Positions 1-36,980 of a DNA stretch of 39,305 nt are shown here, piece by piece. This stretch comes from an uncultured Clostridia bacterium (GTDB lineage: Bacteria > Bacillota > Clostridia > Christensenellales > CAG-314). The stretch is from NCBI GenBank assembly GCA_947601445.1, contig CANQGD010000015.1:1-39305 (forward strand), written 5' to 3'. Under the pieces are notes generated by a model. It had not been told where the DNA came from, ran no database searches, and saw only the letters and a list, made by a program, of their open reading frames with translations. Within the stretch, counting starts at the first letter, position 1, and the number at the start of each line of letters is the position of its first letter. The position numbers were made by a program, and so were the translations under genes.

Positions 1-23
1 CCCCCCCCCAGTCCAAATGTCAA
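1..23 (-). promoter_or_regulatory. Partial poly-G spacer promoter cut by the window edge
   Basis: On the minus strand TTGACA (18-23) is followed by 8 nt and then nine G (1-9), which reaches the window edge. This totals 17 nt, the ideal -35/-10 spacing, so a -10 box would lie just outside. The complete promoter at 15734-15762 has the same 8+9 arrangement. The controlled gene would lie to the left of the window and cannot be seen. Confidence 0.6.
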
Positions 24-14889: not shown

Positions 14890-15604
14890 CCTTGCCAACC
14901 TCGTTCAATTCCATATAGTATTTGTCGAGATCGAAATCTTTTTCTTCGAGAAGATTGACAATGCCGACCAATTCGCCTTTTTTTATGAACACAACCTTGT
15001 CGCAGGTTTTACGCACGACTTCGAGATTGTGCGAAGAAAACAATACCGCATGCTCCGCATCGGCATAGCCGCGTATGAACTCACTTAAAAACACCATTGT
15101 TTGCGGGTCCAACCCTACCATGGGTTCGTCCAATATCCACAACTTGGGATTGTGTACCAACGCGCCCAAAATACATATTTTTTGTCTCATGCCGTGAGAA
15201 TAGTTGGCGATTTGCGTATCCAAAGCATATTGCAATTCGAATTGTTTTGCCAATTCATCGAGGACGTACTGTTTTTGCTCCTTAGTGGCGCCATACAGAC
15301 TGCCTATATAATTTACGTATTCCTTTCCCGTAAGTTTTTCGTATACGGAGTGATCGTCCGGAACATACCCAACGAGTTTTTTTGCCTGTTCGGGCTGTCG
15401 GTTTATGTCGTAACCGCCTATCTCGATGGTACCCTCGTCGAATGGCAACACGCCTATGATGCTCTTGATAATTGTGGATTTGCCCGCACCGTTGCTACCC
15501 ACCAAACCGACGACCTCACCTTCGGAAACGGAAAAGTTTATATTATGCGCGGAATAATTTTTATTTTTTGCATACTTTTTGGAAAAATTTTTTACTTCTA
15601 ACAT
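14882..15604 (-). CDS. ABC transporter ATP-binding protein
   Basis: A 240-residue ATPase with Walker A GSNGAGKST (36-44), a degenerate signature NYSHGMRQK (134-142) in place of LSGGQ, Walker B WILDEP (156-161), and a switch His in SSHNLEVV. The YSHGMRQ form is common in ABC-2-type exporters. ATG 15604 follows GGAG. A longer frame upstream crosses the promoter and is not used. It is the first gene of the operon, followed by the permease and the giant Ig-like protein. Its promoter contains a nine-G tract, so expression of the whole operon should depend on tract length. Confidence 0.92.
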   Translation of the reverse strand: MLEVKNFSKKYAKNKNYSAHNINFSVSEGEVVGLVGSNGAGKSTIIKSIIGVLPFDEGTIEIGGYDINRQPEQAKKLVGYVPDDHSVYEKLTGKEYVNYIGSLYGATKEQKQYVLDELAKQFELQYALDTQIANYSHGMRQKICILGALVHNPKLWILDEPMVGLDPQTMVFLSEFIRGYADAEHAVLFSSHNLEVVRKTCDKVVFIKKGELVGIVNLLEEKDFDLDKYYMELNEVGKDE

Positions 15605-15733
15605 TTTCACTCTCCATAGTTCTTTGGTTATATAAAACAATTTTACAATACGAACAGCAATTTCGAAAACAAAATACACATTCAATTGTATAAATCGATT
15701 ATTTGGGCATTTAACCCCATTTTCACTATAACC

Positions 15734-15762
15734 ATTATACCCCCCCCCATTTAAGATGTCAA
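15734..15762 (-). promoter_or_regulatory. Sigma-A promoter with nine-G tract in the spacer (probable phase switch)
   Basis: On the minus strand a consensus TTGACA (15757-15762) and a consensus TATAAT (15734-15739) are separated by exactly 17 nt, made of 8 ordinary bases and nine G (15740-15748). Gain or loss of G by slippage would give 16, 18 or other spacings and change promoter strength. The sequenced state is the optimal ON state. The start of the ATPase gene is about 130 nt downstream. Poly-G or poly-C spacers switch Neisseria porA and Bordetella fim promoters in the same way. Confidence 0.85.
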
Positions 15763-15831
15763 GAAAAAAAACAAATATACTATAAATAGGATATTTTGAT
15801 AATTCGCGTGTCACAAAAATATAATGTACCG

Positions 15832-15865
15832 AAAAAAAGAACCCCGAAAATTGTTCGAGGTTCTT
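15832..15865 (-). terminator. Terminator of rplM-rpsI
   Basis: A 12-bp stem (15837-15848 with 15854-15865, one wobble) with a 5-nt loop, followed by T on the minus strand (15832-15836). It ends 20 nt after the rpsI stop and about 70 nt ahead of the poly-G promoter. Confidence 0.85.
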
Positions 15866-15885
15866 GAATGGGTCGGCTTTGTAAA

Positions 15886-16296
15886 TCAGCGCTTGCTGAA
15901 TTGCGGAGCTTTACGAGCTTTCTTCAATCCGTACTTCTTACGTTCCTTCATGCGCGGATCGCGAGTCAAAAAGCCGCTCTTTTTGAGAATTGCCTTGTCT
16001 TCGCCGGCAATGACAAGCGCGCGGGAAATGCCGTGACGAATTGCACCTGCCTGACCGGTGTAACCGCCGCCTTTTACGTTGACAATTACATCGTATTTGC
16101 CGATGGTTTCCGTTGCGTTCAAAGGTTGACGTACGATATATTTCAAAGTGTCAAGACCGAAATATTGGTCGATGTCACGGTCGTTGATTGTGATGGTTCC
16201 GTTTCCGCCGGGTATAAGTCTTACGCGAGCGATGGATTTCTTTCTCCTGCCCGTTCCCCAAAATTGAACTTTCTTGGTTGCTTTGATTTTTGCCAT
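15886..16296 (-). CDS. rpsI: 30S ribosomal protein S9
   Basis: A 136-residue S9 of the small ribosomal subunit. The core [14 protein letters not shown], the [20 protein letters not shown] segment and the C-terminal [12 protein letters not shown] tail, which reaches the P-site tRNA, are all present. Length is normal. ATG 16296 follows AAGGAGGG. It lies 14 nt after rplM, the standard L13-S9 pair, and ends at a strong terminator. Confidence 0.97.
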
Positions 16297-16310: not shown

Positions 16311-16745
16311 TTAGTCAAGCGTAAGCACTTCGGGTTGTTGTGCTTCGTGCTTGTGTTCTGCGCCCTTGTATACGCGAAGTTTGGTGAGCATCTTTCTTCC
16401 CAAACTGTTGTGAGGCAACATCCCCTTGATTGCGTGCATCATTGCGAAATCGCTTCTTTCCGCCATGAGCTTTGCGTATTGGGTTTGTTTGAGATGACCG
16501 GGTCTGGGAGAACGGCGAACGTACATCTTTTGCGTGAGTTTGTTGCCTGTCAGAACGGCTTTGTCGCAATTGATGACGATAACGTGATCGCCGCAATCTA
16601 CATGCGGGGTGTAGGTGGGCTTATGTTTTCCGCGCAGGATTGCCGCAACCTGACTTGCCACACGTCCGAGCGGCTTGTCGGCAGCGTCTACTACGTACCA
16701 TTTTCTTTCAACGGCTTCTTTCTTAGCCATAAAAGTCTTTACCAT
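16311..16745 (-). CDS. rplM: 50S ribosomal protein L13
   Basis: A 144-residue L13 of the large ribosomal subunit. Recognisable parts are [34 protein letters not shown] and the [20 protein letters not shown] region. ATG 16745 follows AGGAG. It is the first gene of the rplM-rpsI operon and has a consensus promoter at 16866-16894. A leader of about 115 nt separates promoter and start and could hold the L13 autoregulatory element known in Bacillota. Confidence 0.97.
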
Positions 16746-36971: not shown

Positions 36972-36980
36972 CCCCCCCCC
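36972..36980 (-). promoter_or_regulatory. Nine-G Shine-Dalgarno tract of tetR
   Basis: A run of nine G preceded by GA, ending 4 nt before the tetR ATG. It is the only Shine-Dalgarno candidate. Slippage would change spacing and strength of the site, so TetR level may vary between cells. Confidence 0.65.

Follow-up and report, generated by a model that had tools for sequence, protein, structure and literature searches.

Why does a promoter with two perfect sigma-70-type boxes carry a run of nine guanines between them? The question is raised by a stretch of 39,305 nucleotides from an uncultured Clostridia bacterium (contig CANQGD010000015.1 of assembly GCA_947601445.1), referred to below as the window, which is the entire contig C15 of a 1.6-Mb genome in 59 contigs. 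On its minus strand, from 15762 to 15734, it reads TTGACATCTTAAATGGGGGGGGGTATAAT, that is, a perfect TTGACA and a perfect TATAAT separated by a 17-bp spacer that consists of eight nucleotides, TCTTAAAT, and nine G residues (G9; Table 1). This anatomy, coordinates included, is exactly as described in the initial annotation, which mentions neither the two further G9 tracts of the window (1-9 and 36972-36980) nor the recurrence across the genus. The comparative data presented below make it highly probable that G9 is a contingency (phase-variation) element and belongs, with many other loci, to a poly-G phasome that spans the genus and is controlled, as far as recognised, mainly at promoter spacers. 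A phase-variable promoter switch, as proposed in the initial annotation, is the best reading of these data, but the operon that it was assigned to turns out to be one of many such loci.

Promoters with perfect boxes and a homopolymer of presumably hypermutable length between them are what slipped-strand switching would predict. DNA polymerase slippage would add Gs to the tract or remove them, each gain or loss would alter the distance between the −35 and −10 boxes by single bases, and the altered spacing would shift the activity of a sigma-70-type RNA polymerase on the promoter, leaving the operon for an ABC transporter and an Ig-like protein in high, low, or off expression states among cells. 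The anatomy of these promoters, their recurrence, their strand and position bias, the length differences between copies, and the target genes were observed directly; from them we infer slippage, its effect on transcription, and a benefit of surface variation. We refer to the element at 15734-15762 as a predicted phase-variable promoter because the review PMC11868660 warns against the term phase variation where population-level features (rate, reversibility, and expression change) are missing.

Promoter anatomy

The window contains two matches to TTGACA-N15-19-TATAAT, compared with 0.06 expected from window shuffles. With 56 perfect sigma-70-type promoters in this genome (and 2 matches to the reversed pattern), a consensus promoter is not remarkable in itself; the unusual feature of the 15734-15762 promoter is G9, not its perfect boxes. 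There are nine overlapping G7 matches in the window, which come from three tracts (shuffle mean, 1.64; maximum, 5). The genome has 14 runs of at least seven Gs, 11 of them exactly 9 long, and 5 of the 14 follow TTGACA at promoter distance. Promoter inversion was rejected, as the flanking inverted repeats of an invertible promoter were absent from 15400-16100 (seed 9, length 10; a recombinase gene was not searched for).

Recurrence within the genus

Matches to the pattern TTGACA-N3-11-G7-N0-4-TATRNT were found at 74 sites in 19 of the 25 genomes of the genus, with up to 9 poly-G-spacer promoters per genome; a perfect TTGACA was demanded, which makes 74 a lower bound. The reversed pattern had no match in the 25 genomes, so a chance origin is rejected. 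With C in place of G, the search returned 2 sites in a single genome, which rejects, for C, the idea that any homopolymer would suffice (2 versus 74; tracts of A or T were not tried). A homopolymer between recognisable −35 and −10 boxes, as in porA-type promoters, is present at the window site and at the 74 genus sites. Many tracts of hypermutable length in excess of chance, the mark of a multilocus simple sequence repeat phasome, are seen both in the comparison with the reversed pattern and in that of G7 in the window with its shuffles.

The tracts at the 74 sites include 1 of G7, 4 of G8, 43 of G9, 23 of G10, and 3 of G11, so that 66 are either G9 or G10. In 63 sites the tract abuts the −10 box, and its distance from the −35 box varies from 1 to 10 bases. 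On the family scale, the pattern occurs in 24 of the 41 genomes, which represent 4 of the 11 genera; a class-wide draw gave 11 matching genomes out of 391, and in another family of the same order, two genomes have 8 and 3 sites and three others have none.

Four genomes carry 39, 28, 21, and 23 tracts of at least eight Gs, counts that have no valid chance control. The 75 such tracts in G000, G010, and G013 were sorted, by loose rules without a shuffle control, into 24 promoter-like, 11 before an ATG (directly ahead of the ATG of an open reading frame [ORF] of at least 60 codons), 11 possibly intragenic, and 2 at contig ends, with 27 outside these classes. Campylobacter tracts lie mostly within reading frames, whereas in this set no other recognised class is as large as the promoter-like one. 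Under the same loose rule, ten start-codon-adjacent G8 or G9 tracts besides that of the window were found in G010 and G013, including L339, which by eye is better read as a promoter. In L063 and L070, G9 lies within open frames of great length, with 463+907 and 57+1460 codons on its two sides, and these intragenic tracts are possible translational switches in large proteins. Taken with the promoters, the G tracts by start codons and, less surely, inside genes look like a poly-G phasome.

Length differences between similar copies

As in porA-type promoters, the assembled tract length differs among similar copies, in this case between copies or species and not within one population. In G018, the promoter cores of two zinc-ribbon paralogues are near-identical, one with G8 and the other with G9; the proteins share 78% identity over 757 residues and hardly differ in the first 350. 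In G011, the same promoter core is found with G10 and with G9, and the promoters of leucine-rich repeat (LRR) proteins from four species align through the boxes with tracts of G9, G9, G10, and G10.

The window itself has a second poly-G promoter, located at its left end and running off the contig within the tract. Over the 64 bases that end in its tract, this promoter is identical at 62 positions to the complete G10 promoter of contig C19 (L068 5323-5352), and the similarity does not continue upstream, which suggests the copying of a promoter cassette.

Spacing between the boxes

Ordinary promoters served as a control, namely 122 perfect promoters with spacings of 10-22 allowed, 61 from G000 (G9 site removed) and 61 from G013; G021 was left out. 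The reversed pattern gave 5 and 8 matches in these two genomes, so chance may account for about a tenth of the ordinary sites. A spacing of 17 is found in 5 of the 74 poly-G promoters versus 80 of the 122 ordinary ones (Fisher p = 1.8e-17) and a spacing of 18-19 in 43 of 74 versus 7 of 122 (Fisher p = 3.3e-16). The low share at 17 persists when only TATAAT sites are counted (1 of 29) and when duplicates are collapsed (5 of 70). The 17-nt spacing pointed out in the initial annotation is indeed present but exceptional for poly-G promoters, and G9 in this place therefore need not be the ON optimum. Either the assembled tract is often off the optimum or a G-tract spacer has a longer optimum. The reported optimum of 17 for Treponema pallidum tp0126 and for porA (PMC7864442) speaks against a general shift in spacing.

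Target genes

First genes were called for 64 of the 74 sites and collapsed to 62 distinct ones, the other 10 sites having no called gene; for comparison, 30 loci behind ordinary promoters were chosen, 29 of which could be located, and a gene was called at 24. A lipobox is found in 24 of the 62 targets versus 2 of the 24 controls (Fisher p = 0.008), one of the latter resembling a membrane transporter and probably being a false call. An N-terminal hydrophobic segment is found in 43 of the 62 targets versus 10 of the 24 controls. Pfam domains in the target set include LRR_5 (9 proteins), zinc ribbon (PF13240; 9), InlB-type repeats (5), Big_2 (4), and ABC (3). The predicted target set leans to surface proteins, with a few metabolic genes; surface-exposed or surface-modifying products, as in porA-type systems, appear as a bias with exceptions, an aldolase and a xylose-isomerase-like protein among them. 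In three species (L062 5568-6500; L280; L227), the gene behind a poly-G promoter encodes a class II fructose-bisphosphate aldolase, which would be an odd target for phase variation. The zinc-ribbon/InlB-repeat paralogues L261 and L262 end in a GCGWWWLRSP-type region. DUF6273, found in 3 of the 62 targets, may be of the GCGWWWLRSP type (not assigned protein by protein).

In the window, the promoter is followed by a 129-nt leader, counted from the −10 box to the ABC ATPase gene, whose ATG is preceded by GGAG. Eight genomes have ATPases 70-100% identical to this one, a comparison that covers the ATPase alone and not the rest of the operon. A G9 or G10 lies upstream of the ATPase in G000, G015, G016, and G022 (in G022, with weak boxes); in the last three, the ATPase is 71-76% identical to that of the window, and the flanks of the run look unrelated by eye. 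Two of the eight are not judgeable, G018 (the contig begins 127 bp before the gene) and G021 (an odd G-rich contig end).

Distribution outside the genus

At least 120 matches were obtained from GTDB species contigs, a set whose lineage counts support no conclusion. Whole-genome counts were made for 20 genomes picked because each had a match. They revealed 27 sites in "Candidatus Ancillula," 22 in Streptobacillus notomytis, 20 in a "Bacilli" Lapin metagenome-assembled genome (MAG), 9 in "Candidatus Avimicrobium," 7 in Hydrogenoanaerobacterium saccharovorans An564, and 1-4 in each of the remaining 15; the reversed pattern was absent from all 20. "Ca. Ancillula" and S. notomytis (G439 and G440, behind L107 and L161) hold the largest sets of the 20. 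The 27 promoters of "Ca. Ancillula" have almost one core, with tracts of G9-G15, and the 7 promoters of An564 have tracts of G7-G11. The design is found in records titled as named strains, An564, which we take to be a chicken-gut isolate, and S. notomytis AHL 370-1. With the phylum placement that we assume for the matched genomes outside the genus, the design recurs across phyla, by either spread or convergence.

Alternative explanations

Several observations weigh against phase variation. Six of the 25 genus genomes have no match to the pattern. The lengths of the 75 classified tracts (9 of G8, 60 of G9, 4 of G10, and 2 of G11) form a peak narrower than free slippage might give. MutL_C is found in 24 of the 25 genomes (MutS was not searched), a count that also led us to reject mismatch-repair loss as the cause. 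Spacings of 10-15, seen in 13 of the 74 sites, are not explained by ordinary sigma-70 spacing; a second −10-like hexamer lies at 19-20 in 5 of these 13, compared with 7 of the 57 sites with spacings of 16-19 that have one 2-7 bases further on. In another genus, two ABC-ATPase promoters (L295 in G027 and L296 in G028) have G10 and G7 with the same total spacing of 13, a pair that slippage alone does not account for. The called gene of the G018 paralogues starts 318 nt behind the G8 copy and 40 nt behind the G9 copy, which means that they are not simple duplicates. The related ABC operons of G014 and G008 have no upstream G tract, so the tract is not kept at all operons related to that of the window. 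The 62 targets include metabolic proteins, 3 class II fructose-bisphosphate aldolases and 2 xylose-isomerase-like proteins, and three xylose-isomerase-like promoters all have G9 and a spacing of 18, with no length variation.

This last trio would fit a fixed promoter element, that is, a poly-G kept for binding, for example as a site for a regulator or alternative sigma factor or as a shape element that raises promoter strength, with G at −14 beside the −10 box. On the non-template strand G is strongly preferred to C, as are a tract set against the −10 box and a length of 9, and these preferences point the same way. However, both the position of the tract (1-10 bases from the −35 box) and its length (7-11 in the genus, 7-15 elsewhere) vary, even among similar copies, and G8-G10 tracts are also found in places where a promoter site would be senseless, next to start codons and, with less certainty, within genes; we consider a fixed element unlikely. 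A tolerated mutational bias of the genomes, with the promoter cases as hitchhikers that have no selected function, would agree with the high frequency of G tracts and with the 27 tracts that have no assignable context, but it is hard to reconcile with their placement between consensus boxes, the zero reversed matches, the strand bias, and the bias toward surface-protein targets, and we regard it as very improbable. The probability of an assembly or sequencing artefact at homopolymers is close to nil: although exact lengths in short-read MAGs may be off by one and this genome has two contigs whose ends fall exactly within a G9 promoter tract, where our arithmetic predicts about 0.009, the tracts recur in sensible promoter context in many genomes, the two named-strain records among them. 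These contig ends may reflect length heterogeneity, the repeat, or sequencing difficulty. The phase-variable reading is supported by the recurrence at 74 sites with a preferred strand and position, by lengths within the range known for hypermutable tracts, and by the length differences between copies and the surplus of surface targets.

A broader scheme, to which we give somewhat less than even credence, would have the promoters form a dispersed cassette system, in which ready-made TTGACA-N-Gn-TATAnT cassettes were copied before new surface genes and, among host-associated bacteria, arose in or spread to several phyla (the lineages named are Clostridia, Bacilli, "Ca. Ancillula," Streptobacillus, and Saccharibacteria). 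It is suggested by the 64-bp stretch that is 97% identical between two contigs of this genome and by AC-G9-TATACT-type cores across a genus. Poly-G spacers would also have their own optimum, 18-19 bp and not 17, as G-tract DNA is shorter per base pair.

Other features of the window

The hairpin upstream of the G9 promoter (Table 1) separates it from the unit of the ORF at 15886-16296, which we take to be rpsI, the ORF at 16311-16745 presumably being rplM. The only other minus-strand promoter-like matches in 15550-15950 are two that score just 9 of 12. A plus-strand match (15796-15825; TTGATA, 18, TATAAT; 11 of 12) lies just upstream of the G9 promoter and runs in the opposite direction, antisense into the neighbouring ORF. 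The start of the permease-like gene was set by us at the ATG of MSDF. The third G9 of the window (36972-36980) is a possible translational switch, and the G run may itself act as the Shine-Dalgarno sequence; the TetR-family gene behind it sits near an ABC transporter gene.

Table 1. Features of the window (contig C15) and further promoter-associated G runs of the same genome
Feature	Contig	Position (strand)	Details
Poly-G-spacer promoter	C15	15734..15762 (-)	−35 TTGACA 15757-15762; spacer 17 bp; −10 TATAAT 15734-15739
G9 tract	C15	15740..15748 (-)	C15:15740; complete promoter with TATAAT; G on non-template strand; abuts −10 box; proposed slippage site
ABC transporter ATPase	C15	14882..15604 (-)	First operon gene; PF00005, E = 8e-32
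ABC permease-like membrane protein	C15	13291..14889 (-)	Weak PF16949 match, under cut-off
1707-aa protein	C15	8153..13276 (-)	Hydrophobic N-terminal segment; three Big_2 Ig-like stretches; presumed surface protein
Intrinsic-terminator-like hairpin	C15	15837..15865 (-)	After upstream ORF 15886-16296
Second poly-G promoter	C15	1..23 (-)	TTGACA 18-23, TTTGGACT, G9 1-9, then contig end
Third G9	C15	36972..36980 (-)	4 nt before likely ATG of TetR-type regulator; start-codon-adjacent class
TetR-family regulator	C15	36398..36967 (-)	Downstream of G9 36972-36980; PF00440, PF13305
G10 tract	C19	30336	TATAGT; complete promoter
G run after TTGACA	C4	49516	TATGCT
Interrupted promoter	C10	1-9	Cut by contig end within tract

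Comparison with known systems and implications

The single element, a promoter with poly-G in its spacer, is of a known kind. In Neisseria meningitidis, porA expression is graded with tract length, 11G > 10G > 9G, and as in the window, the poly-G lies in a promoter spacer ahead of a surface protein (PMC3639595). Unlike porA, which is one promoter of a pathogen, the promoters described here number up to 9 per genome in a genus of uncultured bacteria, with a −35 box that is perfect by search pattern. In T. pallidum, several poly-G promoters (tp0126 and tprL/tprE/G/J) control putative outer-membrane proteins; that of tp0126 has its tract between the −35 and −10 boxes, and the tprL tract is mostly G9 in vivo (PMC7864442). 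The genus resembles T. pallidum in having several such promoters in one genome with the tract between the boxes, as in tp0126; here, most tracts abut the −10 box within the spacer, and the spacing peaks at 18-19. Campylobacter has G/C homopolymeric tracts, intergenic as well as intragenic, at many genes (PMC8355987, PMC6321876). In the gut commensal Bifidobacterium breve, poly-G slippage controls a pilus, a surface structure (PMC9187656); unlike those described here, its tracts do not lie in promoter spacers but are intragenic and belong to two pilus loci, equivalents of which exist in other Bifidobacterium. Gut Bacteroidales and Clostridioides difficile vary several loci in phase by invertible promoters (PMC11868660), which are switched by recombinase-driven inversion and not by homopolymer slippage.

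No account of a genus-scale, promoter-centred poly-G network in Clostridia was found in our literature search, whose partial coverage makes this no proof of absence. As far as the search shows, a poly-G phasome that centres on promoters and extends through a genus of gut Clostridia MAGs is new, and so are the G orientation with placement next to the −10 box, the spacing of 18-19 bp, the cassette-like copying, and the fact that unrelated host-associated lineages have the design too.

Comparable networks are known mainly from pathogens. The promoters described here suggest that uncultured gut Clostridia have transcriptional poly-G phasomes and that unrelated host-associated lineages, An564 among them, have such phasomes as well, which makes the question directly testable. 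If the cassette scheme is true, uncultured gut bacteria would have large transcriptional phasomes. The preference for a spacing of 18-19 instead of 17 makes a simple claim about the fit of poly-G DNA under RNA polymerase, one that can be tested. Finally, these bacteria are predicted to express many of their surface proteins by a per-cell lottery, one that would be hidden from ordinary metagenomics in the lengths of homopolymers.
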